Shown one piece after another: positions 9,666-49,200 of a DNA stretch of 64,000 nt (positions are counted from its first letter, which is position 1; each line of letters begins with the position of its first letter). Source of the stretch: Hydractinia symbiolongicarpus (taxonomy: Eukaryota; Cnidaria; Hydrozoa; Anthoathecata; Hydractiniidae); assembly GCF_029227915.1 (NCBI RefSeq), contig NC_079878.1:35305501-35369500 (forward strand), read 5' to 3'. A program made the position numbers and the translations under genes. Below the pieces are notes generated by a model. The model was not told the origin of the DNA and did not search any database. It saw nothing but the letters and a program-made list of their open reading frames with translations.

Positions 9666-9975
9666 AAGTTCAAAGTCTAAAATCAGTTCAATTAAGTCCC
9701 ACAGTCAATCGTTTCACGAATAAAAGCGTTGCAACATAGTAATATTAGAAAAATATCGCTAAATACATGTTTGTACGAATATATGACGCGACCGTTGTTA
9801 CTTAAGCGGACTGATACCGTTAGAAAGTCCATGAAATATAGTTTTTAAATCTGTCTCTATTTTTTCAGCGCGCGCTAACGGCTAGGATTGGTCCAACAGT
9901 AAAAAATGATTTATTTATGTAAATTTTTTATTATAGCGCTACCACGGCGCCCAATTTAATCGCTGAGTTCCAGCA

Positions 9976-10037
9976 ATGAGGCTATTGTACTCCAAGAAAT
10001 AACATTCTTCTTAGATTGACATAATTGCTTGACTTCA
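9976..10037 (-). repeat. 62-bp inverted satellite fragment
   Basis: Between CCAGCA and TTTTATGTCTTGG the sequence reads as the reverse complement of the monomer segment that normally runs from TGAAGTCAAGCAATTATGTC to AATAGCCTCAT. Direct-orientation counterparts lie at about 4912-4973 and 10378-10439. It replaces the roughly 18 bp expected at this monomer position. This is the only opposite-orientation piece noticed in the array. Confidence 0.88.
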
Positions 10038-19500: not shown

Positions 19501-22500
19501 GTTGGTACCAATATGTCACGCAACCGTTGAAACTCAAACGGACTGATACCGTTAGAAAGTCAATGAAATGTAGTTTTGGAGACTGTCTCAATTTTCTAAG
19601 CGAGCGCTAACGGCTAGGATTGGTCCCACAGTAACAATTAAACAAAGCGCTGCCACAGCGCCCAGTGTAATCGCTGAGATACAGCAATAATGTCAAATTA
19701 AGGAGACTGTTATTTTTTAGAGTCCAATTGAGTCATTTATCTCATTTATAAAGTCAAAGTCCAAAATCAGTTCAATTAAGTCTCACAGTCAATCGTTTCA
19801 CTGTTAAAAGCGGTGCAAGCTAGCAATGTCAGAAAAATATCGCTAAATACATGTTGGTGCGAATATGAGACGCAAGCGTTGTACCTGAAACGGACTGATA
19901 CCGTTAAAAAGTCAACGAAATGTAGTTTTGGAAACCGTCTCTATTTTCTCAGCGCGCGATAACAGCTAGGATTGGTCCCAAAGTAACAAATGACTTATTT
20001 ATCTAAATTTTTAAATGAAACGCTACCACAGCGCCCAGTGTAATCGCTGAGATACAGCAATCATGTCAAATTAAGAAAAATGTTATTTTTAGAGTCCAAT
20101 TGTGTCATTTATCTCCTTTATAAAGTCAAAGTCCAAAATCAGTTCTATTAAGTCTCACAGTCAATCGTTTCACTGTTAAAAGCGGTGCAAGCTAGCAATG
20201 TCAGAAAAATATCGCTAAATACATGTTGGTACCAATATGTGACGCAACCGTTGAAACTCAAACGAACTGATACTGTTAGAAAGTCAGTAAAATTTAGTTT
20301 TGGAAGCTGTCTCTATTTTCTCAGCGCACGCTAACGGCCATCATTGGTCCCACAGTAACAAATGACTTATTTATCTAAATTTTTAAATGAAACGTTACCA
20401 CAGCGCCCAGTGTAATCGCTGAGATACAGCAATCATGCAAATTAAGAAGAATGTCATTTTTTGGAGTCCAATTGTGTCATTTATCTCATTTATAAAGTCA
20501 AAGTCCACAATCAGTTCAATTAAGTCTCACAGTGAATCGTTTCACTGTTAAAAGCGATGCAAGCTAGTAATGTCAGAAAAATATCGCTAAATGCATGCTG
20601 GTACGAATATGAGACGCAACCGTTGTACCTGAAACGGACTGATACCGTTAGAAAGTCAATAAAATTTAGTTTTGGAAACTGTCTCTATTTTCTCAGCGCG
20701 CGCTAACCGCTAGGATTGGTCCCACAGTAACAAATGACTTGTTTATCTAAATTTTTAAACAAAGCGCTGCCACAGCGCCCTGTGTAACTGCTGAGGTCAA
20801 GCAATCATGTCAAATTAAGAAGAATTTATTTCTTAGAGTCCAATTGTGTCATTTATCTCATTCATAAGGTCAAAGTCCAAAACCTTTTCAATTAAGTCCC
20901 ACAGTCAATCTTTTCACTGTTAAAAGCGATGCAAGCTAGTAATGTCAGAAAAATATCCCTAAATACATGTTGGTACGAATATGTGACGCAACCGTTGTAG
21001 CTTAAACGGACTGATACCGTTAGAAATTGAATGAAATCTAGTTTATGTAACTGTGTCTTTTTCCCAGCGCGCGCTAACGGCTAGGATTGGTCCCACTGTA
21101 ACAAATGACTTATTTATCTAAATTTTTAAATAAAGCGCTACCACAGCTCCCAGTGTAATCGCTGAGTTCCAGCAATCAAGTCAAGTTAAGAATAAAGTTA
21201 TTTTTTGGAGTACACTAGCCTCATTTGTTACATTCACAAGGTCAAAGTCCAAAATCAGTTCAATTAAGTCCCACAGTCAATGGTTTTACTGGTAAAAGGG
21301 ATGCAACCTAGTAATATCAGAAACATATCGCTAAATACATGTTGGTACCAATATGTGACGCAACCGTTAAAACTCAAACGGAGTGATACTGTTAGAATGT
21401 CAATAAAATGTAGTTTTGGAAACTGTCTCTATTTTCTCAGCGCGCGCTAACGACTAGGATTGGTCCCACAGTGAAAAATGACTTATTTATCTAAATTTTT
21501 AAATAGAGCGCTACCACAGCGCCCAGTGTAATCGCTGAGTTTCAGCAATCAAGTCAAGTTAAGAATAAAGCTATTTTTTGGAGTACACTGGCCTCATTTG
21601 TTACATTCACAAGGTCAAAGTCCAAAATCAGTTCAATTAAGTCCCACAGTCAATGGTTTCACTGGTAAAAGCGATGCAACCTAGTAATATCAGAAACATA
21701 TCGCTAAATACATGTTGGTACCAATATGTGACGCAACCGTTGAAACTCAAACGAACTGATACTGTTAGAAGGTCAATGAAATGTAGTTTAGGAAACCGTC
21801 TCTATTTTCTCAGCGCGCTAACAGCTAGGATTGGTCCCACAGTAACAAATGACTTATTTATCTAAATTTTTAAATGAAACGCTACCACAGCGCCCAGTGT
21901 AATCGCTGAGATACAGCAATCATGTCAAATTAAGAAGAATGTTATTTTTTAGAGTCCAATTGTGTCATTTATCTCATTTATAAAGTCAAACTCCAAAATC
22001 AGTTCAATTAAGTTTCACAGTCAATTGTTTCACTGTTAAAAGCGGTGCAAGCTAGTAATGTCAGAAAAACATCGCTAAATTCATGTTGGTACGAATATGT
22101 GACGCAAGCGTTGTACCTGAAACGGACTGATACCGTTGGAAAGTCAATGAAATGTAGTTTTGGAAACTGTCTCTATTTTTACGGGGCGCGCTAACGGCTA
22201 GGATTTGTCTCACAATAAGAAATGACTTGTTTATCTAAATTTTTAAATAAAGCGTTACCACAGCGCCCAGTGTAATCGCTGAGTTCCAGCAATCAAGTCA
22301 AGTTAAGAATAAAGTTATTTCTTGGAGTACACTTGCCTCATTTTTTACATTCACAAGGTCAAAGTCCAAAATCAGTTCAATTAAGTCCCACAGTCAATGG
22401 TTTCACTGGTAAAAGCGATGCAACCTAGTAATATAAGAAACATATCGCTAAATACATGTTAATACCAATATGTGACGCAACCGTTGAAACTCAAACGAAC

Positions 22501-32223: not shown

Positions 32224-32420
32224 GCCCAGTGTAATCGCTGAGATACAGCAATCATGTCAAATTAAAAAGAATTTTATTTTTTAGAGTCCAACTGTGTCAT
32301 GCGATGCAAGCTAGTATATCAAAAAAATATCGCTAAATTCATGTTGGTACGAATATGAGACGCAAGCGTTGTACCTGAAACGGACTGATACCGTTAGAAA
32401 GTCAATGAAATTTAGTTTTG
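32224..32420 (+). repeat. Truncated monomer (73-bp internal deletion)
   Basis: At 32300/32301 GTGTCAT joins GCGATGCAAGC directly; the 73 bp normally between them, which contain the CACAGTCAATCG landmark, are missing. An identical junction sits at 47355/47356, exactly 15055 bp downstream, showing that the lesion predates duplication of the block. Confidence 0.85.
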
Positions 32421-33099
32421 GAAACTGTCTCTATTTTCTCACCGCGCGCTAACGGCTAGGATTGGTCCCACAGTAACAAATGACTTATTTATCTAAATTT
32501 TTTAATGAAACTCTACCACAGCGCCCAGTGTAATCGCGGAGATACAGCAATCATGTCAAATTAAGTAGAATGTTATTTCTTAGAGTCCAATTGTGTCATT
32601 TATCTCATTTATAAAGTCAAACTCCAAAATCAGTTCAATTAAGTCTCACAGTCAATCGTTTCACTGTTAAAAGCAGTGCAAGCTAGTAATGTCAGAAAAA
32701 CATCGCTAAATACATGTTGGTACGAATATGTGGCGCAAGCGTTGTACCTGAAACGGACTAATACCGTTAGAAAGTCAATGAAATGTAGTTTTAGAAACTG
32801 TCTCTATTTTCACGGGGCGCGCTAACGGCTAGGATTTGTCTCACAATAAGAAATGACTTATTTATCTAAATTTTTAAATAAAGCGTTACCACAGCGCCCA
32901 GTGTAATCGCTGAGTTCCAGCGACCAAGTGAAGTTAAGAATAAAGTTATTTCTTGGAGTACACTTGCCTCATTTGTTACATTCACAAGGTCAAAGTCTGA
33001 AATCAGTTCAATTAAGTCCCACAGTCAATGGTTTCACTGGTAAAAGCGATGCAACCTAGTAATATCAGAAACATATCGCTAAATACATGTTGGTACGAA

Positions 33100-34340
33100 T
33101 ATGAGACGCAAGCGTTGTACCTGAAACGGACTGATACCGTTAGAAAGTCAATGAAATGTAGTTTTGGAAACTGTTTCTATTTTCTCACCGCGCGCTAACG
33201 GCTAGGATTGGTCCCACAGTAACAAATGACTTATTTATCTAAATTTTTTAATGAAACTCTACCACAGCGCCCAGTGTAATCGCGGAGATACAGCAATCAT
33301 GTCAAATTAAGAAGAAAGTTATTTTTTAGAGTCCAATTGTGTCATTTATCTCATTTATAAAGTCAAACTCCAAAATCAGTTCAATTAAGTCTCACAGTCA
33401 ATCGTTTCACTGTTAAAAGCGGTGCAAGCTAGCAATGTCAGAAAAACATCGCTAAATACATGTTGGTACGAATATGTGGCGCAAGCGTTGTACCTGAAAC
33501 GGACTGATACCGTTAGAAAGTCAATAAAATGTAGTTTTGGAAACTGTCTCTATTTTCTCACCGCGCGCTAACGGCTAGGATTGGTCCCACAGTAACAAAT
33601 GACTTATTTATCTAAATTTTTTAATGAAACTCTACCACAACGCCCAGTGTAATCGCGGAGATACAGCAATCATGTCAAATTCAGAAGAATGTTATTTTTT
33701 AGAGTCCAATTGTGTCATTTATCTCATTTATAAAGTCAAACTCCAAAATCAGTTCAATTAAGTCTCACAGTCAATCGTTTCACTGTTAAAATCGGTGCAA
33801 GCTAGCAATGTCAGAAAAACATCGCTAAATACATGTTGGTACGAATATGTGGCGCAAGAGTTGTACCTGAAGCGGACTGATACCGTTAGAAAGTCAATGA
33901 AATGTAGTTTTGGAAACTGTCTCTATTTTCTCACCGCGCGCTAACGCGTAGGATTGGTCCCACAGTAACAAATGACTTATTTATCTAAATTTTTTAATGA
34001 AACTCTACCACAGCGCCCAGTGTAATCGCGGAGATACAGCAATCATGTCAAATTAAGAAGAATGTTATTTTTTAGGGTCCAATTGTGTCATTTATCTCAT
34101 TTATAAAGTCAAACTCCAAAATCACTTCAATTAAGTCTCACAGTCAATCGTTTCACTGTTAAAAGCGGTGCAAGCTAGTAATGTCAGAAAAACATCGCTA
34201 AATACATGTTGGTACGAATATGTGGCGCAAGCGTTGTACCTGAAACGGACTGATACCGTTAGAAAGTCAATGAAATGTAGTTTTGGAAACTGTCTCTATT
34301 TTCTCAGCGCGCGCTAACGGCTAGGATTGGTCCCACAGTA
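33100..34340 (+). repeat. Run of homogenised single monomers (373-bp period)
   Basis: Successive monomers here share CTCACCGCGCGCTAACG, GAAACTCTACCACA and ATCGCGGAGATACAG variants, so the repeat period falls to a single monomer. The same subtype forms runs at about 48.2-49.3 and 50.1-51.0 kb, where CTCACCG recurs at 50104, 50477 and 50850 (373-bp steps). Confidence 0.75.
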
Positions 34341-34957
34341 ACAAATGACTTATTTTTTTAAATTTTTAAATAAAGCGCTACCACAGCTCCCAGTGTAATC
34401 GCTGAGTTCCAGCAATCAAGTCAAGTTAAGAATAAAGTTATTTTTTGGAGTACACTAGCCTCATTTGTTACATTCACAAGGTCAAAGTCCAAAATCAGTT
34501 CAATTAAGTCCCACAGTCAATGGTTTTACTGGTAAAAGGGATGCAACCTAGTAATATCAGAAACATATCGCTAAATACATGTTGGTACCAATATGTGACG
34601 CAACCGTTAAAACTCAAACGGACTGATACTGTTAGAATGTCAATAAAATGTAGTTTTGGAAACTGTCTCTATTTTCTCAGCGCGCGCTAACGGCTAGGAT
34701 TGGTCCCACAGTGAAAAATGACTTATTTATCTAAATTTTTAAATAGAGCGCTACCACAGCGCCCAGTGTAATCGCTGAGTTTCAGCAATCAAGTCAAGTT
34801 AAGAATAAAGCTATTTTTTGGAGTACACTGGCCTCATTTGTTACATTCACAAGGTCAAAGTCCAAAATCAGTTCAATTAAGTCCCACAGTCAATGGTTTC
34901 ACTGGTAAAAGCGATGCAACCTAGTAATATCAGAAACATATCGCTAAATACATGTTG

Positions 34958-34961
34958 GTAC
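34958..34961. other. Left target-site duplication (TA or GTAC)
   Basis: The uninterrupted satellite reads GGTACC at this position. The observed GGTAC-TCGGG...CCCGA-GTACC fits either a 2-bp TA duplication with element ends CTCGGG, or a 4-bp GTAC duplication with ends TCGGG. The palindromic target makes the two indistinguishable. Confidence 0.8.
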
Positions 34962-34987
34962 TCGGGCAACTTACGGACAGTCTCCAA
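34961..34987 (+). repeat. Left terminal inverted repeat (27 bp)
   Basis: It starts CTCGGGCAACTTACGGACAG and continues to TCTCCAA. It is the perfect reverse complement of 42293-42319; identity ends after CTCCAA, with ATTATT on the left and AACGTG on the right. It lies on the 3' side of the transposase gene. Confidence 0.95.
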
Positions 34988-34996
34988 TTATTTCGG

Positions 34997-35044
34997 GTAA
35001 AACACGGGTATACCGCGTTTTATCATAATCGTCTACCGCGTTTT
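34997..35044 (+). repeat. Left subterminal repeat cluster
   Basis: GTAAAACACG at 34997-35006 has an inverted counterpart at 41993-42002 near the other end. TACCGCGTTTT occurs twice, at about 35011 and 35033. Short subterminal repeats near the ends are typical transposase-binding sites in many DNA transposons; that role is inferred here. Confidence 0.5.
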
Positions 35045-35924
35045 GCTATCTGACGTGCTTTTTGTCGTTTCAAGTTTGTGAAGAAGACAAGAAGGTGCCG
35101 CCATTTTTGTGTTTTTGTGTTGACAGAAATGGTTGGTTGTACCATACATTTGGCTGTTAAGGTATTTGTGATCACGCAGTAAAAACAAGGTTTGTAATAT
35201 TATTTATTCTATATATTTGAAATTTTCTATATTCTATTTGCCTATAGCTACCTGTCAAAATTATATATATAGTAGCTATAGCAAAAGCTAGCTATATATT
35301 TCTGGAAGTGTTTACCTAAACTTTGTAACTGTCAGAGCTATACATAGCCTTTCTGGCTGTTATATACATAGATATATACATAGATAGATATATACAATAT
35401 AAAAACAGTTAGTCAAGAAATTAAACTGTTTATGTAGTTCTTAGATCACTGCAGATTACTTAGCTAAATAGTTGTGGGTGCAAATCCTACCTCTGTACGA
35501 AAGAGTAGCTTAATTAGAAAAGCAGTTTAGCTAGTATTCTCTTGATTTAGGGTGCAGATATATAACCCACATAATGGATTGTAAAAATGGACCTTTTTAA
35601 GACTGTTAGCTAGCTAGCTATTTCTTCTAAGTTTTGCACAATACAAGATTATTGCGTATTAAGCCCGTCAAAGCAACAACAAATACTTTGATATCTTTTT
35701 AAAGGTATTAATTTCCTTCTCGTGTTGTTCTTGTTTTTTCGTTTGTGCAAAATGATGATCCACAATAATATAAAAATACATTTCCCATACGAAACGTATC
35801 AGAAAAAAAGTTTTGTATATATATATATATATCAAATGTTTTTATTTTAGCTAGCTCTGGCTAATTTGTTGAAAAATATGCTTCTTAAAATTTAAAAGCG
35901 CATATTGATCCTTTTGCTGAAAAA
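35045..35924 (-). other. Non-coding 3' region of the transposon
   Basis: AT-rich sequence without a credible open frame on either strand. It holds several TAGCTAGCTA-type and TATA-type simple repeats (for example about 35365-35400, 35607-35620 and 35816-35832). A GCCGCCATTTTT motif at 35097-35108 resembles a YY1 site on the plus strand, and a 17-codon open frame follows at 35129; neither shows that a second gene exists. Confidence 0.6.
35841..35846 (-). terminator. Polyadenylation signal of the transposase gene
   Basis: The plus strand reads TTTATT, so the minus strand has the canonical AATAAA about 80 bp downstream of the stop codon at 35925. It is the first canonical signal after the stop. 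Placement is by sequence only. Confidence 0.5.
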
Positions 35925-36587
35925 CTAAATATTTGTCCATTGTTCAAGAATTTTTTTGGCGTGGTAATTTAATTTATATTTCTCCATGTAAATTTTATTT
36001 GATTTAAGCTCTTCTGTATTCGGCATCTTAAAATTTTTTGCTATGAAGTCTTTTTCCCAATCTTTCGTAGCTTTTTCTGCTTCATGCTGAACAGCCATCA
36101 CTTTTTCACGAAAATGAATGATAAATGCTCTACATTTTTTTCTTGAATGTTCACTTTTAGTCAGCTTATATGACATATGATGACGGTCGAAGTCCTTCAA
36201 TTTATCTGAATAGCCAAGAACATACATTATGTTCTTGCATACACCTGATTCAAGAATTGGGTTTTGGTCAGCTTTCGTCTGTCTGTCTCTACAGATCTTT
36301 TCCAACTTACTATTTTCTGCAGTTTTTTTAGGATTAGTAACTGAGTCAGCTATGCAAGGTTGTTGTTCCAATGTAATTGTGTTTGATGTTTCTTTCTCAA
36401 AATGAACAGCTTGGTCAACTTCTAAATCCAATAAGGAAGGTTGCTGTTCTAATGTGATATCTATCTCCATTTCTATCTCTTCATTATTATCATGTGATAT
36501 ATACGCATTATCATATTCTGCATTATCATCATCAGCCATCAGTTTGATATTACTTGTTATGTTTGCTTTTGGATTTGTAACGTCAGT
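35925..36587 (-). CDS. Transposase exon 10 (residues 1045-1264, stop)
   Basis: The acceptor is CTTACTCTCAG at 36588; the frame is open from there through 16 codons before the first internal ATG. The first part is acidic and low in complexity (Asp/Glu/Asn-rich, with LEQQPS and LEQQPC repeats). The second part is a lysine-rich helical domain beginning near YVLGYSDKL and ending ILEQWTNI. I infer a structural or protein-interaction tail rather than a catalytic role. Confidence 0.85.
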   Translation of the reverse strand, partial: TDVTNPKANITSNIKLMADDDNAEYDNAYISHDNNEEIEMEIDITLEQQPSLLDLEVDQAVHFEKETSNTITLEQQPCIADSVTNPKKTAENSKLEKICRDRQTKADQNPILESGVCKNIMYVLGYSDKLKDFDRHHMSYKLTKSEHSRKKCRAFIIHFREKVMAVQHEAEKATKDWEKDFIAKNFKMPNTEELKSNKIYMEKYKLNYHAKKILEQWTNI

Positions 36588-39500
36588 CTGAGAGTAAGAA
36601 AGAGTTCATATGAGCTAAGAAGCAGGCTAGGTATCTGTAGAATTAAAGATAGATGTTGTCCAGATATAAGTAGATTAAGTTGGTTAGGACACTTGCAAGA
36701 ATGAAGGAGGATAATTGGGTAAGAAAGTGTAGAGATAGACTTGATACAGAGGAATTTGAGTTGGGGGCTATTAATATACCCATCCTACAGACAGTAAGCC
36801 AAGAATGACGTATTACTTACTTCTTCAAGTGCCTTGCATTCTATTAAATCTCCATTTTCGTCGAAAGTATTTATCTTTGTGATTGGCAATTCAATACCAC
36901 GATCAACGCATTTCTTCCAACAAGCTTCTACATCTTTTGCTACTGATTGCAGGTTGTCTTGTTTGAAATTTGTCATCAAAGGCCCTTCAACTCTGAAATC
37001 ATCATCCTCTTTTCCATCATGAAATATGATAATATCATTTTCTCTATGCCACCAAACACCATTACCATAGAGCAAAAAATCTGCAATTCTTTCCAAGTGT
37101 GCCTGATATTTCCGTAGAGGTAAGTTAATGTTAAAACAACTTCTTTTCTCATCTGAAAATTCAAAAAAGTTTATTTCGAAACAAAATGACAATCATACAC
37201 TTTTTATCACATGTTAAAATTTTAAACAAAATTAGAAAGATTAATGTTTGAATATCAAACCAGACTTTTTATTAAGTCAAGCACTTCAAAATATATTTAA
37301 TTATCATATAGAACAGCCTTTCTGTTTCAGTTTATTCCATGACGACAGAACATTGCCTACGTAAAATGACATTTTCCTGTTTTGCGTTGGCAAACTCGTG
37401 TTCGACATTTGCAATTTATATTTGTTTTGCGGCCAAATGCTGCAGTACACAAATAACAGTTAAATATTTGCCAATGTGAATTGAAAACTTTTGTTTTCAT
37501 GTGGACATTCGTCTCAGCAATTTCTGAATGCCAACATGAATTAGAAAGCCAGTAGAAACAGATATTTTAGACTTACCAAGTACACTCTCTGAAAATTTCG
37601 ATATTTTAGATGTGTTAGTTGATTTTCTAGAACATTCTTTGGCAATAAATTTCTGTTCAGCTTGAATACGGATGATGCTATTATCACGTATGGATTCTAA
37701 GGATCTGGCTGATGTTCTCAAACTTATTTGATTAATTTTGCTGAATAGCTGTTCTTCATTCTCTGTGTGTAAGGAGCTTGGTGAGATAATTCTCGATACT
37801 TCTGCTAAATGTGTTGTCAAGCCATGATAATAAATGCCATAAAGCTTTTGTGTAGACATTGACTTTAAATTATGCCCAAACAGATCTTGGCACAACATGG
37901 CATGCTGGAAACTAATATTATGTAATCGTAGAATAATTCGTGGGGACCTTTTTTGGGATTTAAGATATGATAACCGAACTAGCTCCATCAATGTGTACAA
38001 CAACTCTTTGATTTCCTTTCTGCAAGTGCTTTGCATTGATTGGTAAACAACTATTGATGACAGCCGATAGTCAGATCCTCTCACCTTGTCCTTCGAACCA
38101 TATGTGGCATCTAGGGACTGTTGAAAAATTTTATTCTCTTGAGGTGTCAACACTTCATGCAAAACATCCCACAAATTCTTGATATGTCCTTTACAATCAT
38201 GCAGTGGTTCAATCGGCATCACTTCATAATTAGCAAGATTCAAGGACTCCATTGTACTATGTTCATTTCCAAAGCAAAGAGCTGGAACACGGATAATTCC
38301 TTTAAAAAAAATTGTTGACTGAATTTATAAATTTTAATGAGTGTAATTTTGAAAATAAAATCAGAATTGTTTTTATGCTTTTCAATTTTCCTCAACATAT
38401 CTGATTTTCTTTTGCTTTATTTGTAGAAAAATTTTCAGACAAATATCAACTAACATCAACTTATATAAAACTTTTGCGAAAAAGGCCAAAATTTGCAAAA
38501 GTTATTTTAGTTTATCAAAAATAAAATAGCCCTAACCTGTCAAATGATTTTTTAGTAGCTGTTCAAGGTCCTTTTTGTGCAACTTTTGATGAACTGGTAA
38601 GTCACGGTCAAGGTTTCTGTAATTTACTTCAAGACCCAGTTTCTCCACATTGAGTTGTTGAAATGGAGACACAGCTTTTTGTTGTTGTCCTGCTGGGCCT
38701 GATATTACCTAAAATAATCAAAAATAGTTAGTTAAAAATAGTTAATGTTATGTAATAGAAATCTATAAATTTGTCATTCATATTTTGTTTCATTTACCTG
38801 GAATAAATAATTTTCTATACTTTTTGTCAAAATTACAAATAACGAACAACTTATTTTGAAATTTATGTACCTTCTTCCTTCTTTGTTCCAAGGACACTAT
38901 TTTGTTACTGTAGACATGGGCTATATCTGTAAATCTTGATTTTTTGCATCCACAAAGACAGGGAAAGTTTCCACCATGAGAGTTACCACTCTCGTATTGT
39001 ATTTCAGGATGGTCACCTAAAATATAAATGAATTCCTGTTATCCTTTTTTAAATAAATTGTTGCATTATGCAGATTAAACTTGTGTGAATTGAATTCCAT
39101 CAACATACCATGAAAAAACCTTATCACATCAACCACTTTCTTATCATTGACAATTAATGGGTCAGACAATTTTCTAATGTCATTAAGTCTGGTTTCGACA
39201 TATGAAAGCTTCTCTGCAATGCTATCCTGGGCAAAACCAATAATATAAACGGATGGACGCTCCACAAGTTCTTGAACATCATGACAAATTCCTAAAATTT
39301 AATTTAGCGAACATTATTAAGTGGCATTTAATGTCTACTATCAAAGTAAAAAAAGTAAATATTTTTGATTTTAGATATCTAGAATTTTGGTGATCAATAA
39401 CAATACTTCTAAATGACATACCTGTTTTTGCATACATTTCCTCATCTGTATAAAATAACTTGTCATCGTAAACAACTTTGACAGTCAATAGTAAATGGCC

Positions 39501-41812
39501 AGCACTCAAAAGTGATGCATGATCAGACCATAGTATGAAGTATCTTGTCAAAGCACCTTTTGGATTTCTCATAATCCCCAAACTTTGATGTTCTTCAAAA
39601 ATCTTTCTGCGAATGTCACTCAGTGGTATACAACGACCAGATACTGTGAATTCTTCATTGAAAATCACTCCATTCTTTATCACAGCTTTTTTATATTTTT
39701 TTGGCTCAACCAAAGATCCTAATAGAATATCTCCAGATTCAATCTTCTTCAGTATCTCCTCTTTTATTTTTTCAAATGTAGGGGGCATAGGAACCGACAC
39801 TCCACTTCCATCTGTAAAAAATGAAATGTTCTCAATATCTCTCTTTCTGAACAAGGAATGTTAAGTTGATTGTACAAACGCTACGATATATACATCCTCT
39901 TTTTGTATAATACATATTTCTAAAAGTATTGTGAAGATGCAATGTGTTTTAGGTAAACATTGTTCTACACACAGAAATCTACTGTAACACTTGAAAGAAT
40001 TTAAGAATCTTTTGCTATAAATTATACAGATTTGATGACAAGACACAATGTTGGAAGCGTACATTATATATCAATTCTTCTTTTTTTTAGGTACTCACCT
40101 GGAAACTTTTCATATTTTCGACGATATTTGCATGGGTTAACAAAATTGTTTGCAAATTTTGATAAATCAACACCGTTATCTTCGAGAAATTCCTTAACAA
40201 CTGTATTTCCAGTAGTTCCAGGTATATGATATTTTCGGGCCAAGTCAGAGTAATTTATCTGCAAGAGGAAATAAATCCATGTGTCACACAAGTTATTTTT
40301 TTGTTCAAAATTGGACAATGATATAAATGGCAATGTGTTCAACACAAATGTTAACAGATACATGAAGATATACCTTACTACCAACATCCATTCCTAACAC
40401 TTCTTCAAGTAGAGCATGACGATCGAAATTTAATTTGTTTGGATCTGGACTATGTCGTTTTTTCTTGATTGGTGTGTCATCTACGTCTTGATTTTGTTGT
40501 AATTTTGTCCGCCCTATGGTTAGAAACAACTCCTTAATATATTTTGTTTAAAATAATTTTTACAGTTTTTAGTTTAGTCAATAATGATTTGCGAGACTGA
40601 ATTCTACGAACCTAAGGTTTTATTTATTTTTGCTATTTTTTTTGCATTTATTCACACAGCAACTTATTTTCATAACATAGTTTTAATTATTTCTGCGTGT
40701 TAATTTCGTGGGGTTATATACTTCATCATGATATATGTTGATTGCTTATTTTTTCATTTTAATATTTGTTTATATATATATATATGCGTGTATATAATTA
40801 TTTATAAATTTATATTCAAAAAATGCAACAATAAAATAATACCATTCAAGAAAAACCAGTGCCTGTAGGTGAATGGAGATACAGTACAGGTGAAAGATTA
40901 AAATTAAAAAATATATATAGCTATACCTATCATTCTTTTAATTGAATTTTCTTTACTTTCAAAGTATTGAATCGATCTTGATTTTTTGTAGGAAGCTTTT
41001 GATTGTCTGATGCCAAAGATTGTGTCTGTTGCTTTATTTTCACCAAAACATTTTTTTTCCAAGGATTTTTTTATTATTTTATTCCGTTCTCTAAGCTCTT
41101 TCTTTTTATCAGACTTGGACTTCACTTGAGCAATATTAGCTGATTTGACCTTTGTGAGAACCTTTGTGAATGGAGTGTCATATATACTGTCCCATTTTGA
41201 GTTGATACTATTAAGTACAGATTCTGCCGTTGTTTTCATATATGACATGTCAGTCTTTGTTTGAGGAATTGTCAAATTTATGGTGATTGGATGAACTGGT
41301 GTTGTGTTGATACTGTTTGGAGTAGTAATCGTTGATATGTTGTTATATGTTACATTTACAGGTGTGGACGTATTATTTGTTGTAGTTGGAGTTTTATTAT
41401 TCGTACTATTTACAGTGTTTGATATATCTGTTAATGGTTTTTTAACATTGTTGATTTTTTTTGTTCTGTGTGATGTTGAAACAGGAAATGTATTTTTATT
41501 TTTTTCTAATAAACTGCATGCTTGACATGCATGTATAGTATGCCTAATCTTCTCATTATCTTTGAGTTTCTTCCAATTGTCTTGAGAAAAATCATCTAGG
41601 TATTTTTCCCTTACTTTACCGTTCCACTTTTTTTTTCTCACAAACGCAGTAAGTTCCTTGGACTTTCTGTCAAAATGATTTTTCGTTATGGATACATCAG
41701 GAAACATCGCCATAAAATTTGAAAAACGCAAGTCACAGTGATGATGACTTATATTTTTCATCCCATTCAATACTTCAGCACGCATAAAAGCGCATTCAAA
41801 AACGTTTGCCAT
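35925..41812 (-). CDS. Putative transposase, ten exons, 1264 residues
   Basis: Manual splicing gives exons 41812-40927, 40513-40374, 40258-40099, 39811-39422, 39291-39109, 39016-38871, 38708-38537, 38299-37577, 37152-36821 and 36587-35925. All nine introns are GT-AG, every junction keeps phase, and the total is 3795 nt including the stop. The start has a good context (A at -3, G at +4). In order, the protein shows an N-terminal region with His23-Cys26 and His91/His94/Cys96/Cys99, an Asn/Thr-rich linker (about 131-180), basic stretches (231-254 and 310-318), a helix-turn-helix-like segment (343-375), a central region with Asp492 and Asp588 as candidate catalytic acids, a Cys cluster (606, 608, 610), a SAP-like segment (about 649-692), a conserved-looking EPLHD-type motif (723-727), a GNGVWW motif (963-968) and a charged helical C-terminus. 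From memory it matches uncharacterised transposon proteins of invertebrates. Transposase function is inferred from its position between inverted repeats; the superfamily is unknown to me. Confidence 0.88.
36590..36770 (+). pseudogene. LINE reverse transcriptase C-terminal tail remnant
   Basis: On the plus strand, inside intron 9 of the antisense transposase gene, one frame reads ELRSRLGICRIKD...RLSWLGHLQ; a one-base shift near 36700 then continues RMKEDNWVRKCRDRL. From general knowledge, the pattern RLGI...L.W.GH..RM..D.WV.KCR is the conserved tail after the reverse transcriptase domain of many non-LTR retrotransposons. Only this short, frameshifted piece remains; no upstream reverse transcriptase motifs are present. 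Its reverse complement supplies the polypyrimidine tract for exon 10. Confidence 0.55.
36821..37152 (-). CDS. Transposase exon 9 (residues 934-1044)
   Basis: The acceptor is TTTTCAG (phase 1) and the donor is GAAGAA/GTAAGT (phase 0). It encodes a compact region with RKYQAHLERIADFLLYGNG followed by VWW (residues 947-968), an acidic turn (HDGKEDDDF) and a predicted helix containing CWKKCVDRG. The GNGVWW block looks like a family hallmark, recalled but not checked against a database. Confidence 0.85.
37153..37576 (-). other. Intron 8 of the transposase gene (424 bp)
   Basis: Bounded by CTTG/GTAAGTC and TTTTCAG/ATGAG. It contains AT-rich sequence with no open frame or recognisable element. An in-frame reading through the donor would reach a stop at 37497, so the intron must be removed. 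Confidence 0.75.
37577..38299 (-). CDS. Transposase exon 8 (residues 693-933)
   Basis: The largest central exon. It starts 47 nt upstream of the first internal ATG and reads RVPALCFGNEH before NLANYEVMPIEPLHDCKGH (713-731). Later motifs are RSPRIILRLHN (810-820), CQDLFGHNLK (829-838), KLYGIYYHGLTTH (844-856) and ENEEQLF (872-878). Asp727, His731, Glu872 and Glu875 are plausible active-site or structural acidic/His positions; assigning a third catalytic acid from a single sequence is guesswork. Confidence 0.88.
38537..38708 (-). CDS. Transposase exon 7 (residues 636-692), SAP-like segment
   Basis: The acceptor is TTTTAG/GTAATA (phase 0) and the donor is ACAG/GTTAGG (phase 1). The reading ISGPAGQQQ... 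is followed by a helix-rich stretch ending LHKKDLEQLLKNHLT. The spacing of leucines and lysines resembles a SAP-type DNA-binding helix-extension-helix. There is no ATG in this exon; it was found by following splice phases between neighbouring exons. Confidence 0.82.
38871..39016 (-). CDS. Transposase exon 6 (residues 588-635), Cys cluster
   Basis: Spliced to the preceding RFFHG, it gives FFHGD followed by HPEIQYESGNSHGGN and then CLCGCKK. Asp588 is a good candidate for the second catalytic aspartate. Cys606, Cys608 and Cys610, together with nearby histidines, could bind zinc. The exon ends QRRKK at the donor GTACAT. Confidence 0.83.
39109..39291 (-). CDS. Transposase exon 5 (residues 526-587)
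   Basis: The acceptor is TTTTAG/GAATTTG and the donor is CATG/GTATGT. It encodes ICHDVQELVERPSVYIIGFA, a hydrophobic strand, then a helical stretch and DVIRFFHG. The internal ATG at 39265 is not the start: the open frame continues upstream to the splice acceptor. Confidence 0.85.
39422..39811 (-). CDS. Transposase exon 4 (residues 396-526)
   Basis: The acceptor is TTTTTACAG/ATGG and the donor is AACAG/GTATGT. It carries GSGVSVPMPPTFEKI, RCIPLSDIRRKIFEEH, then YFILWSDHASLLSAGHLLL, which places Asp492 on a hydrophobic strand as expected of a first catalytic aspartate in an RNase H-fold transposase. It ends TDEEMYAKT. The catalytic call is an inference from local pattern only. Confidence 0.86.
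40099..40258 (-). CDS. Transposase exon 3 (residues 343-396), HTH-like
   Basis: The acceptor is TCTTGCAG (phase 0) and the donor is CCAG/GTGAGT (phase 1). INYSDLARKYHIPGTTGNTV followed by VKEFLEDNGVDL has the helix-turn-helix spacing of DNA-binding domains (small-residue turn, then a recognition-like helix). It is followed by a basic CKYRRKYEKFP linker. Confidence 0.84.
40374..40513 (-). CDS. Transposase exon 2 (residues 296-342), basic stretch
   Basis: The acceptor is ACCATAG/GGCGG (phase 1) and the donor is AGTAAG/GTATAT (phase 0). It contains PIKKKRHSP (310-318), a classical nuclear-localisation-like run, and RHALLEEVLGMDVG leading into the helix-turn-helix-like exon 3. Confidence 0.84.
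40514..40926 (-). other. Intron 1 of the transposase gene (413 bp)
   Basis: Runs from ATAG/GTATAGC to ACCATAG. Very AT-rich, with a TATATATATATATG run near 40769-40784 and no open frame of interest. Either of two neighbouring GT positions could be argued, but only this donor restores phase with exon 2. Confidence 0.75.
40927..41812 (-). CDS. Transposase exon 1 (residues 1-296), start codon
   Basis: The longest exon, beginning MANVFECAFMRAEV. The N-terminal 100 residues look like a folded His/Cys module (HHHC at 23-26; HTIHACQAC at 91-99), possibly zinc-binding. Residues 131-180 are Asn/Thr-rich and probably disordered. Residues 231-254 are strongly basic (KSKSDKKKELRERNKIIKKS and on). The start at 41812 is the first ATG after upstream stops and sits in ATCATGG context. 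Confidence 0.88.
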
Positions 41813-42292
41813 GATATTCGTTATTCGTTCTTACTTTATTCCACAAAAAAAATTTCCCGCTGAAGCTACCATATTTATGTTTTTCTTTTCCCGCAGTTTT
41901 TGCGCGTCTTTTAATATAACGGGAAAAAAATCCGACACCGTAGTAAAAATGACGTCAAAGTACTGAAAATGACGAAAAATCAAAGAAAACGTCGTGTTTT
42001 ACAGTTCGCACCACTTAGGGGTATGTGGCGTCATCGGATATTTTTTTAATCCACAGATAATATGTCGACGACTTAAAAAAAAGCCGTTTATAGTTGATCG
42101 CGTATTTATTTATATGGGTTTTACCGAATTAAAAAGGTGAATAAAATCACGAAAGCGAGGCTATATCGACTTAAATACAACTAAAAAATTTTAAACAGCT
42201 TTTTTTCAAAAATCGATCCTTCACCTGAACGAATAAAAAAAACCAGGATGTTTTATTATCAGTCAGGTTGGTGCGCTTAGTAAAACCACGTT
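41813..42292 (-). promoter_or_regulatory. 5' non-coding region and presumed promoter of the transposase gene
   Basis: About 480 bp between the start codon and the right inverted repeat, without an open frame. The minus strand contains TATAAATA (plus-strand TATTTATA at 42107-42114), about 295 bp upstream of the ATG, which could be a TATA box. The region also holds several GACGTC/GACGAAAA motifs near 41950-41995. Promoter function is inferred from position. Confidence 0.45.
41993..42002 (-). repeat. Right subterminal inverted copy of GTAAAACACG
   Basis: Reads CGTGTTTTAC on the plus strand, the reverse complement of 34997-35006. A similar TAAAACCACG lies at 42281-42290, in the same orientation as the left copy. 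Possible transposase-binding sites. Confidence 0.4.
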
Positions 42293-42319
42293 TTGGAGAC
42301 TGTCCGTAAGTTGCCCGAG
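42293..42319 (-). repeat. Right terminal inverted repeat (27 bp)
   Basis: Perfect reverse complement of the left end, reading TTGGAGACTG and then TCCGTAAGTTGCCCGAG on the plus strand. It lies on the 5' side of the transposase gene. Confidence 0.95.
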
Positions 42320-42322
42320 TAC
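42319..42322. other. Right target-site duplication (TA or GTAC)
   Basis: GTAC here repeats GTAC at 34958-34961. After removing the element and one copy, the satellite reads TTGGTACCAATATGTG, as in many intact monomers of the array. Confidence 0.8.
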
Positions 42323-43299
42323 CAATATGTGACGCAACCGTTGAAACTCAAACGAACTGATACTGTTAGAAGGTCAATGAAATGTAGTTTAGGAAACCGT
42401 CTCTATTTTCTCAGCGCGCTAACAGCTAGGAATGGTCCCACAGTAACAAATGACTTATTTATCTAAATTTTTAAATGAAACGCTACCACAGCGCCCAGTG
42501 TAATCGCTGAGATACAGCAATCATGTCAAATTAAGAAGAATGTTATTTTTTAGAGTCCAATTGTGTCATTTATCTCATTTATAAAGTCAAACTCCAAAAT
42601 CAGTTCAATTAAGTTTCACAGTCAATTGTTTCACTGTTAAAAGCGGTGCAAGCTAGTAATGTCAGAAAAACATCGCTAAATACATGTTGGTACGAATATG
42701 TGACGCAAGCGTTGTACCTGAAAAGGACTGATACCGTTGGAAAGTCAATGAAATGTAGTTTTGGAAACTGTCTCTATTTTTACGGGGCGCGCTAACGGCT
42801 AGGATTTGTCTCACAATAAGAAATGACTTGTTTATCTAAATTTTTAAATAAAGCGTTACCACAGCGCCCAGTGTAATCGCTGAGTTCCAGCAATCAAGTC
42901 AAGTTAAGAATAAAGTTATTTCTTGGAGTACACTTGCCTCATTTTTTACATTCACAAGGTCAAAGTCCAAAATCAGTTCAATTAAGTCCCACAGTCAATG
43001 GTTTCACTGGTAAAAGCGATGCAACCTAGTAATATAAGAAACATATCGCTAAATACATGTTGGTACCAATATGTGACACAACCATTGAAACTCAAACGGA
43101 CTGATACCGTTAGAAAGTCAATGAAATGTAGTTTTGGAAACTGTCTCTTTTTTTTTATCGTGCGCTAACGGCTAGGATTGGTCCCACAGTAACAAATGAC
43201 TTATTTATCTAAATTTTTTAATGAAACTCTACCACAGCGCCCAGTGTAATCCCTGAGATACAGCAATCATGTCAAATTAAGAAGAATGTTATTTTTTAG

Positions 43300-46200
43300 A
43301 GTCCAATTGTGTCATTTATCTCATTTATAAAGTCAAACTCCAAAATCAGTTCAATTAAGTCTCACAGTCAATCGTTTCACTGTTAAAGGCGGTGCAAGCT
43401 AGTAATGTCAGAAAAACATCGCTAAGTACATGTTGGTACGAAAATGTGACGCAAGCGTTGTTCCTGAAACGGACTGATACCGTTAGAAAGTCAATGAAAT
43501 GTAGTTGTGGAAACTGTCTCTATTTTCACGGGGCGCGCTAACGGCTAGGATTTGTCTCACAATAAGAAATGACTTGTTTATCTAAATTTTTAAATAAAGC
43601 GTTACCACAGCGCCCAGTGTAATCGCTGAGTTCCAGCAATCAAGTCAAGAAAAGAATAAAGTTATTTCTTGGAGTACACTTGCCTCATTTGTTACATTCA
43701 CAAGGTCAAAGTCCAAAATCAGTTCAATTAAGTCCCACAGTCAATCGTTTCACTGTTAAAAGCGATGCAACCTAGTAATATCAGAAACATATCTCTAAAT
43801 ACATGTTGGTACCAATATGTGACGCAACCATTGAAACTCGAACGGACTGATACCGTTAGAAAGTCAATGAAATGTAGTTTTGGAAACTGTCTCTATTTTA
43901 TAAGCGAGCGCTAACGGCTAGGATTGGTCTCACAGTAACAATTAAACAAAGCGCTGCCACAGCGCCCAGTGTAATCGCTGAGATACAGCAATCATGTCAA
44001 ATTAAGGAGACATTTATTTTTTAGAGTCCAATTGAGTCATTTATCTCATTTATAAAGTCAAAGTCCAAAATCAGTTCAATTAAGTCTCACAGTCAATCGT
44101 TTCACTGTTAAAAGCGGTGCAAGCTAGCAATGTCAGAAAAATATCGCTAAATACATGTTGGTACGAATATGTGACGCAAGCGTTGTACCTGAAACGGACT
44201 GATACCGTTAGAAAGTCAATGAAATTTAGTTTTGGAAACTGTCCCTAATTTCTCAGCGCGCGTTAACGGCTAGGATTTCTCTCACAATAAGAAATGACTT
44301 GTTTATCTGAATTTTTAAATGAAACGCTACCACAGCGCCAAGTGTAATCGCTGAGATACAGCAATCATGTCAAATTAAAAAGAATGTTATTTTTTAGAGT
44401 CCAACTGTGTCACTTATCTCATTTATAAAGTCAAAGTCCAAAATCAGTTCAATTTAGTCCCACAGTCAATGGTTTCACTGTTAAAAGGGATGCAACATAG
44501 TAATATCAGAAACATATCTCTAAATACATGTTGGTACCAATATGTGACGCAACCATTGAAACTCGAACGGACTGATACCGTTAGAAAGTCAATGAAATGT
44601 AGTTTTGGAAACTGTCTCTATTTTCTCAGCGCGCGCTAACGGCTAGGATTGGTCCCACAGTAACAAATGACTTATTTATCTAAATTTTTAAATAAAGCGC
44701 TACCACAGCGCCCAGTGAAATTGCTGAGTTCCAGCAATCAAGTCAAGTTAAGAACAAAGTTATTTCTTGGAGTACACTTGCCTCATTTGTTACATTCACA
44801 AGGTCAAAGTCCAAAATCAGTTCAATTAAGTCCCACTGTCAATGGTTTCACTGGTAAAAGCGATGCAACCTAGTAATATCAGAAACATATCGCTAAATAC
44901 ATGTTGGTACCAATATGTCACGCAACCGTTGAAACTCAAACGGACTGATACCGTTAGAAAGTCAATGAAATGTAGTTTTGGAAACTGTCTCAATTTTCTA
45001 AGCGAGCGCTAACGGCTAGGATTGGTCCCACAGTAACAATTAAACAAAGCGCTGCCACAGCGCCCAGTGTAATCGCTGAGATACAGCAATCATGTCAAAT
45101 TAAGGAGACTGTTATTTTTTAGAGTCCAATTGAGTCATTTATCTCATTTATAAAGTCAAAGTCCAAAATCAGTTCAATTAAGTCTCACAGTCAATCGTTT
45201 CACTGTTAAAAGCGGTGCAAGCTAGCAATGTCAGAAAAATATCGCTAAATACATGTTGGTGCGAATATGAGACGCAAGCGTTGTACCTGAAACGGACTGA
45301 TACCGTTAAAAAGTCAACGAAATGTAGTTTTGGAAACTTTCTCTCTTTTCTGAGCGCGCGTTAACGGCTAGGATTGGTCCCACAGTAACAAATGACTTAT
45401 TTATCTAAATTTTTATATGAAACGCTACCACAGCGCCAAGTGTAATCGCTGAGATACAGCAATCATGTCAAATTAAAAAGAATGTTATTTTTTAGAGTCC
45501 AACTGTGTCATTTATCTCATTTATAAAGTCAAAGTCCAGAATCAGTTCAATTAAGTCTCACAGTCAATCGTTTTACTGTTAAAAGCGACGCAAGCTAGTA
45601 ATGTCAGAAAAATATCGCTAAATACATGTTGGTGCGAATATGAGACGCAAGCGTTGTACCTGAAACGGACTGATACCGTTAAAAAGTCAACGAAATGTAG
45701 TTTTGGACACTGTGTCTATTTTCTCAGCGCGCCCTAACGGCTAGGGTTGGTCCCACAGTAAAAAATGACTTATTTATCTAAAGGTTTAAATAAAGCGCGA
45801 CCACAGCGCCCAGTGTAATCGCTTAGTTCCAGCAATCAAGTCAAGTTAAGAATAAAGTCATTTCTTGGAGTGCACTTGCCTCATTTGTTACATTCACAAG
45901 GTCGAAGTCCAAAATCAGTTCAATTAAGTCCCACAGTCAATGGTTTCACTGGTAAAAGCGATGCAACCTAGTAATATCAGAAACATATCGCTAAATACAT
46001 GTTGGTACCAATATGTGACGCAACTGTTGAAACTCAAACGGACTGATACCGTTAGAAAGTCAATGAAATGTAGTTTTGGAAACCGTCTCTATTTTCTCAG
46101 CGCGCGATACCAGCTAGGATTGGTCCCAAAGTAACAAATGACTTATTTATCTAAATTTTTAAATGAAACGCTACCACAGCGCCCAGTGTAATCGCTGAGA

Positions 46201-49200
46201 TACAGCAATCATGTCAAATTAAGAAGAATGTTATTTTTTAGAGTCCAATTGTGTCATTTATCTCCTTTATAAAGTCAAAGTCCAAAATCAGTTCAATTAA
46301 GTCTCACAGTCAATCGTTTCACTGTTAAAAGCGGTGCAAGCTAGCAATGTCAGAAAAATATCGCTAAATACATGTTGGTGCGAATATGAGACGCAAGCGT
46401 TGTACTTGAAACGGACTGATACCGTTAAAAAATCAACGAAATGTAGTTTTGGAAACTTTCTCTCTTTTCTGAGCGCGCGTTAACGGCTAGGATTGGTCCC
46501 ACAGTAACAAATGACTTATTTATCTAAATTTTTATATGAAACGCTGCCACAGCGCCAAGTGTAATCGCTGAGATACAGCAATCATGTCAAATTAAAAAGA
46601 ATGTTATTTTTTAGAGTCCAACTGTGTCATTTATCTCATTTATAAAGTCAAAGTCCAGAATCAGTTCAATTAAGTCTCACAGTCAATCGTTTTACTGTTA
46701 AAAGCGACGCAAGCTAGTAATGTCAGAAAAATATCGCTAAATACATGTTGGTGCGAATATGAGACGCAAGCGTTGTACCTGAAACGGACTGATACCGTTA
46801 AAAAGTCAACGAAATGTAGTTTTGGACACTGTGTCTATTTTCTCAGCGCGCGCTAACGGCTAGGGTTGGTCCCACAGTAAAAAATGACTTATTTATCTAA
46901 AGGTTTAAATAAAGCGCGACCACAGCGCCCAGTGAAATGGCTGAGTTCCAGCAATCAAGTCAAGTTAAGAATAAAGTTATTTCTTGGAGTACACTTGCCT
47001 CATTTGTTACATTCACAAGATCAAAGTCCAAAATCAGTTCAATTAAGTCCCACTGTCAATGGTTTCACTGGTAAAAGCGATGCAACCTAGTAATATCAGA
47101 AACATATCGCTAAATACATGTTGGTACCAATATGTCACGCAACAGTTGAAACTCAAACGGACTGATACCGTTAGAAAGTCAATGAAATGTAGTTTTGGAA
47201 ACTGTCTCTATTTTCTAAGCAAGCGCTAACGGCTAGGATTGGTCCCACAGTAACAATTAAACAAAGCGCTGCCACAGCGCCCAGTGGAATTCGTGAGATA
47301 CAGCAATCATGTCAAATTAAAAAGAATGTTATTTTTTAGAGTCCAACTGTGTCATGCGATGCAAGCTAGTATATCAGAAAAATATCGCTAAATTCATGTT
47401 GGTACGAATATGAGACGCAAGCGTTATACCTGAAACGGACTGATACCGTTAGAAAGTCAATGAAATGTAGTTTTGGAAACTGTCTCTATTTTCTCACCGC
47501 GCGCTAACGGCTAGGATTGGTCCCACAGTAACAAATGACTTATTTATCTAAATTTTTTAATGAAACTCTACCACAGCGCCCAGTGTAATTGCGGAGATAC
47601 AGCAATCATGTCAAATTAAGAAGAATGTTATTTCTTAGAGTCCAATTGTGTCATTTATCTCATTTATAAAGTCAAACTCCAAAATCAGTTCAATTAAGTC
47701 TCACAGTCAATCGTTTCACTGTTAAAAGCGGTGCAAGCTAGTAATGTCAGAAAAACATCGCTAAATACATGTTGGTACGAATATGTGGCGCAAGCGTTGT
47801 ACCTGAAACGGACTAATACCGTTAGAAAGTCAATGAAATGTAGTTTTAGAAACTGTCTCTATTTTCACGGGGCGCGCTAACGGCTAGGATTTGTCTCACA
47901 ATAAGAAATGACTTATTTATCTAAATTTTTAAATAAAGCGTTACCACAGCGCCCAGTGTAATCGCTGAGTTCCAGCGACCAAGTGAAGTTAAGAATAAAG
48001 TTATTTCTTGGAGTACACTTGCCTCATTTGTTACATTCACAAGGTCGAAGTCTGAAATCAGTTCAATTAAGTCCCACAGTCAATGGTTTCACTGGTAAAA
48101 GCGATGCAACCTAGTAATATCAGAAACATATCGCTAAATACATGTTGGTACGAATATGAGACGCAAGCGTTGTACCTGAAACGGACTGATACCGTTAGAA
48201 AGTCAATGAAATGTAGTTTTGGAAACTGTTTCTATTTTCTCACCGCGCGCTAACGGCTAGGATTGGTCCCACAGTAACAAATGACTTATTTATCTAATTT
48301 TTTTAATGAAACTCTACCACAGCGCCCAGTGTAATCGCGGAGATACAGCAATCATGTCAAATTAAGAAGAATGTTATTTTTTAGAGTCCAATTGTGTCAT
48401 TTATCTCATTTATAAAGTCAAACTCCAAAATCAGTTCAATTAAGTCTCACAGTCAATCGTTTCACTGTTAAAAGCGGTGCAAGCTAGCAATGTCAGAAAA
48501 ACATCGTTAAATACATGTTGGTACGAATATGTGGCGCAAGCGTTGTACCTGAAACGGACTGATACCGTTAGAAAGTCAATGAAATGTAGTTTTGGAAACT
48601 GTCTCTATTTTCTCACCGCGCGCTAACGGCTAGGATTGGTCCCACAGTAACAAATGACTTATTTATCTAAATTTTTTAATGAAACTCTACCACAGCGCCC
48701 AGTGTAATCGCAGAGATACAGCAATCATGTCAAATTAAGAAGAATGTTATTTTTTAGAGTCCAATTGTGTCATTTATCTCATTTATAAAGTCAAACTCCA
48801 AAATCAGTTCAATTAAGTCTCACAGTCAATCGTTTCACTGTTAAATTCGGTGCAAGCTAGCAATGTCAGAAAAACATCGCTAAATACATGTTGGTACGAA
48901 TATGTGGCGCAAGCGTTGTACCTGAAACGGACTGATACCGTTAGAAAGTCAATGAAATGTAGTTTTGGAAACTGTCTCTATTTTCTCACCGCGCGCTAAC
49001 GGCTAGGATTGGTCCCACAGTAACAAATGACTTATTTATCTAAATTTTTTAATGAAACTCTACCACAGCGCCCAGTGTAATCGCGGAGATACAGCAATCA
49101 TGTCAAATTAAGAAGAATGTTATTTTTTAGAGTCCAATTGTGTCATTTATCTCATTTATAAAGTCAAACTCCAAAATCAGTTCAATTAAGTCTCACAGTC

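Follow-up and report, generated by a model that had tools for sequence, protein, structure and literature searches.

What kind of transposon lies in a satellite array of the hydrozoan Hydractinia symbiolongicarpus, and is it still complete, was the question raised by the 64,000-nucleotide stretch analyzed here (the window; contig NC_079878.1 of assembly GCF_029227915.1, forward strand, positions 35,305,501 to 35,369,500). An earlier reading of the letters alone (the sequence-only reading) had described a DNA transposon at window positions 34961-42319 and left it unassigned. Our analysis indicated that this 7359-bp element is very probably a cut-and-paste transposon that is apparently complete and moved very recently, and whose spliced gene encodes a 1264-residue DDE transposase of the RAG1/Transib/CACTA kind, here called CMCT for the CACTA-Mirage-Chapaev-Transib/RAG1 clade. 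The mechanism class is a known one; the lineage appears to be unnamed in the sources searched.

The ends of the element were sharply defined. A repeat finder returned identical 27-bp inverted repeats (Table 1), in agreement with the sequence-only reading, and the element terminates in CTC..GAG with CTCGGG at the outermost end. Because the target, ACATGTTGGTACCAATATGT, is itself almost palindromic, the repeat finder reported longer arms of 38 bp (97% identity). The 19-bp core of the terminal repeat was found at only two places in the window with up to three mismatches and at none in 100 shuffles. In the left subterminal region (window 35011-35044), TACCGCGTTTT is present twice, starting at element bases 51 and 74. 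The pair is a possible extra transposase-binding repeat, and no exact 9-mer of it was found within 260 bp of the right end of the element.

Copies elsewhere in the genome showed how recently the element has moved. The 25-bp end pattern, with up to three mismatches, was detected at 73 places, and its backwards control at none. Twenty-five two-ended elements were paired by eye and 21 were read, namely the window copy and 20 others (L009-L028); the four left out were two of 7357 bp on C14 and two of about 13.8 kb (C4, C14). The 20 other copies were 99.86-99.97% identical to the window copy over aligned bases and 12 of them had a length of 7356-7359 bp; the window copy has two extra bases at one place compared to all of them. 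The mean pairwise divergence among the 21 copies was 0.064%, and 41 of the 43 variable columns (counted where at least 15 copies were present) varied in a single copy only. Private changes ranged from zero to six per copy (no clock applied), and L013, L023 and L024 had zero substitutions between them across 7357 bp. The flanks differ between copies, which argues against assembly duplicates. Very recent movement of the family is supported, and the check proposed with the sequence-only reading, counting and aligning other copies, found many that are nearly identical and share the same ends.

The copies also settled the size of the target duplication. By itself, the window copy is compatible with TA, TAC/GTA or GTAC. 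The longer duplications (TAC, GTAC) fit the window copy only and were rejected; the duplication of the window copy is TA because a 2-bp duplication was found in all 21 copies, so that the clean target-site duplication described earlier was confirmed. Ten dinucleotides were represented: TT in six copies, AT and CA in three each, TA and AA in two each, and AC, AG, GG, GT and TG once each. The insertion target is 2 bp without a fixed sequence. Copy L020 has AA in place of CT as the first two bases of its left end, an AA target duplication and an intact frame.

The 1264-codon frame was intact in 14 of the 21 copies, which would encode eight distinct proteins, one of them common to seven copies. 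Two substitutions, G1046D and K1108E, separate the window protein from the majority sequence, the latter also present in three other copies. The element is apparently intact and probably autonomous, as had been proposed. Internal deletions were present in seven copies (L009, L012, L014, L015, L016, L026, and L028), and the deletion of L026 is in frame and leaves 1135 residues. Breakpoint overlaps were 0-5 bases for six deletions, with the exact junction located in five of the six copies (not L015); such short overlaps can be compatible with interrupted gap repair and are too short as proof of it. Copy L016 has lost about 3.6 kb, and about 180 bp from its gene-3'-side end it contains some 3.1 kb of DNA that has no long match to the element. 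Its element pieces share six overlapping bases at that point, which would resemble the insertion of another element. Copy L025 contains a 305-bp insertion at about base 1534 (gene orientation) with tRNA-like box sequences GTGGTAGAGCG and GGGTTCAAACCCC. The divergence of this copy is about 0.1%, and the insertion resembles a short interspersed nuclear element of tRNA origin with recent activity; ARAGORN detected no tRNA gene in it.

The predicted gene lies on the minus strand and contains ten exons and nine GT..AG introns with consistent phases and no internal stop; its coding sequence of 3795 nt specifies 1264 amino acids and a TAG stop. Our reconstruction reproduced exactly the exons, phases and stop-free frame of the sequence-only reading. 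The NCBI model LOC130645997 (P0001, 861 amino acids) comprises exons 4-10 and agrees with our reconstruction at junctions 4-9, its last six. The two substitutions that mark copy L018 on C5, L554V and G602E, are both present in it. The three 5' junctions of the predicted gene model are based on the sequences of relatives: junctions 2 and 3 aligned with few or no gaps with those relatives that reach them, and junction 1 aligned weakly and with many gaps. No second long frame was seen in the element; RAG2-like genes were not searched for.

The transposase was characterized by its residues and its predicted fold. Window residue numbers equal the P0001 number plus 403, and A1 denotes the alignment of relatives. 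The window protein contains D492 (WSDH), D588 (GDHP), the pair C606 and C608, H726 (EPLHD), H851 and H856 with four residues between them (YYHGLTTH), and E872 and E875 (TENEEQLF). C608, H726, H851, H856, E872 and E875 were invariant in A1, and the D492 and D588 columns were at least 90% conserved. The Cys pair is spaced C-x-C in the window protein, as it is in the nearest relatives, and C(2)C in many relatives; P0004 lacks the first Cys. The best matches to the predicted fold were RAG1, amphioxus RAG-like and Transib, with RAG1 matched over residues ~459-1008 (6cg0, 6xnx, 6pqx, and 6b40); roughly 10% of the structurally aligned residues are identical. VIA-align contains no CACTA, Mirage or Chapaev structure, an absence that carries no weight as evidence. 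Mouse RAG1 has CTLCD, IDALHCDIGN, YFHKTLAH and SEGNESGNKLF in an order equal to that of the window protein motifs. In a profile comparison that was not significant (E 0.053, probability 1%), YYHGLTTH...TENEEQLF was in register with RAG1 YFHKTLAH...NESGNKLF, and E872 fell on the second E of SEGNE; another RAG1 piece was in the wrong register. We take that second E to be E962 of RAG1, in the numbering that presumably places its other acidic residues at D600 and D708.

The published description of the CMCT clade comprises a DDE transposase with an RNase H-like fold and three conserved acidic residues, two Cys arranged as C(2)C between the second D and the E, three His, of which two form an H(3-4)H pair ahead of the last E, a 2-5-bp target duplication and, in most cases, CA..TG ends (PMC12730594). 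The window element has a predicted RNase H-like fold like that of RAG1 with D492, D588 and E872 or E875 as its putative acidic triad, has H851, H856 and the further H726, and duplicates 2 bp in all 21 copies. Its ends are CT..AG and differ from the CA..TG pattern, which is not strictly defining. Judged by predicted fold and anatomy, a putative function as a CMCT-type cut-and-paste transposase is well supported, and placement in the clade by predicted fold and residue pattern is likely.

Sequence searches were silent in comparison. The 1264-residue protein had no Pfam-A match at E<=10 (hmmscan), including PF12940 and PF02992; its core matched no PDB entry by sequence, where SAP-type or chance matches only were obtained; NCBIfam gave one chance match (E 0.19); and an Rfam scan of the window gave nothing. 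Nothing significant emerged from hhalign comparisons with RAG1 pieces and with EnSpm exons. PF12940 had no match in the Hydractinia genome, but the control genomes were silent too. A viral origin was rejected, with no BFVD match at E<=0.001. The earlier label of unassigned thus holds for Pfam-A and, for the core, the PDB, and gives way where fold and residues point to the CMCT clade. By sequence, the lineage seems diverse and without a significant match to the CMCT members compared (RAG1, EnSpm).

The best surviving alternative, which we consider unlikely, is that the element belongs to the ordinary EnSpm/CACTA elements of animals, such as TRC of Schistosoma and insects, but has diverged past profile recognition; Repbase may already list relatives under EnSpm. 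Among animal TRC/CACTA elements, 2-bp duplications occur (in SmTRC1, 7 of 14 copies), and 27-bp ends are described for one element (PMC1636069); 2 bp also falls within the 2-3-bp duplication expected of EnSpm/CACTA, for which the fungal value is 3 bp (PMC12730594). Two motifs look EnSpm-like by eye: LH-x-x-K, and the D-x-P(-A) stretch that precedes the Cys pair. By behavior, EnSpm/CACTA would be the nearest named group, on the analogy of the 2-bp duplications of TRC. In contrast, the window protein lacks a Transposase_21 (PF02992) match, while this profile detected EnSpm at 15 places of the Hydractinia genome with up to 65 bits, none within the copies read, and the window protein had no profile similarity to the EnSpm exons of that genome. 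The ends are CTC (CTCGGG) rather than the CAC or CCC described for the group (PMC1636069). Ten of the 15 EnSpm places (L029-L043) have no stop inside the match. A published RepeatMasker table for Hydractinia lists zero En-Spm and assigns about 48% of the genome to unclassified repeats (PMC10411563); DNA transposons account for 11% of the genome in another paper (PMC11067881).

Membership in one of the known CMCT lineages Mirage, Lanisha and Plavaka, or in a different family such as KDZ or Academ, is improbable. Mirage generates 2-bp duplications, and we know of no solved structure for KDZ or Academ. The fungal CMCT groups ESTA and Plavaka have the set of two Cys and three His, and both ESTA and PlavakaA make 2-bp duplications (PMC12730594). 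However, the ends of Plavaka are TGT..ACA (PlavakaA) or CATCA..TGATG (PlavakaB) rather than CTC..GAG, ESTA inserts at TA, which was the target in only two of our 21 copies, and Zisupton and Kyakuja make 8-bp and 7-bp duplications (PMC12730594). Chapaev is part of the same assemblage by motif type (PMC12730594), but it has a 3-4-bp duplication and CAC..GTG ends (PMC4079192). The absence of any Pfam-A match at E<=10 also argues against this reading.

A divergent Transib/RAG-like transposon, nearer to RAG1 than to CACTA, is slightly more improbable still: the predicted fold and the nonsignificant register of the H(4)H-to-E stretch with mouse RAG1 favor it, but these elements make 5-bp duplications and have CAC ends resembling the heptamer of recombination signal sequences (PMC7204232), PF12940 does not match, and RAG1 and Transib, as the only CMCT structures found, possibly rank first for any member of the clade. 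The window protein shares with RAG1 the succession of Cys pair, LH motif, H(4)H and E; it differs by a SAP-like region that separates the Cys pair from LH and by extra N- and C-terminal regions.

From these comparisons the element would be a member of no named superfamily that could be tested, and published descriptions set it apart from Transib/RAG-like, Chapaev, ESTA and Plavaka. A bolder reading, to which we give somewhat less than even odds, would make it the still-active founding example of an unnamed superfamily of the RAG1/CACTA clade, present in cnidarians and diverse in this genome, with a RAG1-like core plus a SAP insertion, 2-bp sequence-independent insertion and CTC..GAG ends. Among the open-licence papers that our literature searches returned, none describes the lineage in its title or abstract opening.

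Relatives of the transposase were numerous. A search of the genome with exon 8 gave at least 152 matches, in which one exon may appear as several pieces: 21 rows at 100% identity, one group mostly at 66-76% and others at 26-59%. Several relatives at 34-37% identity sit in long uninterrupted frames (up to 987 amino acids) and are apparently intronless, compared to nine introns in the window gene; these include G000 C12:340544, C7:30919874, C9:19014988 and others (35-37%, 641-987 amino acids). A sister family has the first 22 bases in common at one end and then a different continuation. Its 31-bp end was found at 16 places in the genome (up to three mismatches), several of which, by position, lie about 4 kb from an exon 8 match that belongs to the 69-73% group. 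For the window gene compared with two sister copies, nonsynonymous divergence (dN) was 0.164 and 0.180 and synonymous divergence (dS) 3.2 and 2.3; dS was estimable in these two comparisons with the window gene only and not in the other four. Because dS is saturated, dN/dS of the window gene against the sisters indicates strong past constraint and nothing more. The two sister copies gave a dN/dS of 0.51 against each other. Protein searches returned 29, 7 and 43 rows, the second of them, made with A1, including five new relatives (P0030-P0034) among its seven. The four relatives that bore an organism name were all cnidarian (Hydractinia, Oculina, Nematostella and Clytia).

The following mechanism is consistent with these features. 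The transposase would bind both 27-bp ends and cut them with its predicted RNase H-like core, in which D492, D588 and E872 (or E875) would form the active site; excision may pass through a hairpin, as it does in RAG. The free ends would be joined to two target phosphates 2 bp apart, and gap filling would give a 2-bp duplication of almost any dinucleotide. We infer that the window copy itself is active.

RAG1, the cutter of antibody genes, descends from transposons of the CMCT clade. Our structure searches turned up solved structures for no members of the clade other than RAG1, RAG-like and Transib. A young, apparently intact relative with a different target spacing, in a laboratory hydroid, would allow tests of how the spacing of the two insertion points is determined in the clade and of which RAG1 core parts are ancestral. 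The intact young copies make the lineage directly testable. If the superfamily is indeed an unnamed one, it would offer a living comparison for the change of target spacing between 2 and 5 bp. The element could become a gene-transfer tool. Families like it may be part of the unclassified repeats of Hydractinia.

Table 1. Window coordinates of the element, its gene and the adjoining host DNA.
Feature	Position	Strand	Remarks
Satellite array, left	32301..34961	.	373-bp units; host DNA outside element
Target duplication, left copy	34959..34960	.	TA, 2 bp; 2-bp duplication in 21/21 copies
Terminal inverted repeat, left	34961..34987	+	27 bp; begins CTCGGGCAACTTACGGACAG
Exon 10	35925..36587	-	Through TAG stop; a partly low-confidence stretch followed by a helical C-terminal region
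Exon 9	36821..37152	-	Conserved YQAHLERIADFLL and GVWWH motifs
Exon 8	37577..38299	-	H726 of the LH motif; H851 and H856 as H(4)H pair; E872 (or E875) as putative catalytic Glu
Exon 7	38537..38708	-	Region aligning with SAP domain of relatives, without Pfam match here
Exon 6	38871..39016	-	Putative second Asp D588 (GDHP); Cys pair C606, C608
Exon 5	39109..39291	-	
Exon 4	39422..39811	-	Putative first catalytic Asp D492 (WSDH)
Exon 3	40099..40258	-	
Exon 2	40374..40513	-	
Exon 1	40927..41812	-	From ATG; N-terminal region, residues 1-295
Terminal inverted repeat, right	42293..42319	-	27 bp; ends ...CCCGAG
Target duplication, right copy	42320..42321	.	TA, 2 bp
Satellite array, right	42319..47355	.	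373-bp units; host DNA outside element

The location inside a satellite array, also recognized in the sequence-only reading, was borne out by 373-bp units on both sides of the element. When the flanks were joined without the element and one TA, the resulting 400-bp empty site was 99.75% identical, without gaps, to window 21521-21920, and 149 of 273 matching pieces crossed the join, at 83-99.75%. The empty site matches the satellite across the join, and therefore the element entered an already existing array. Flanks were compared with two satellite probes only, the window satellite and a second satellite (probe L045). One of them matched the flanks of six of the 21 copies (the window copy, L010, L011, L021, L025 and L027), and neither matched those of the other 15. 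Satellite-specific insertion was rejected on this count, and the array is probably an incidental address because those 15 copies have flanks that match neither probe. Tandem repeats make up 15.7% of the Hydractinia genome according to one paper (PMC11067881). Apart from small gaps between arrays, window 1-34960 and 42320-64000 consist of the 373-bp satellite, the rows of which match at 79-91%, with 402-bp periods also present within 3275-10345.
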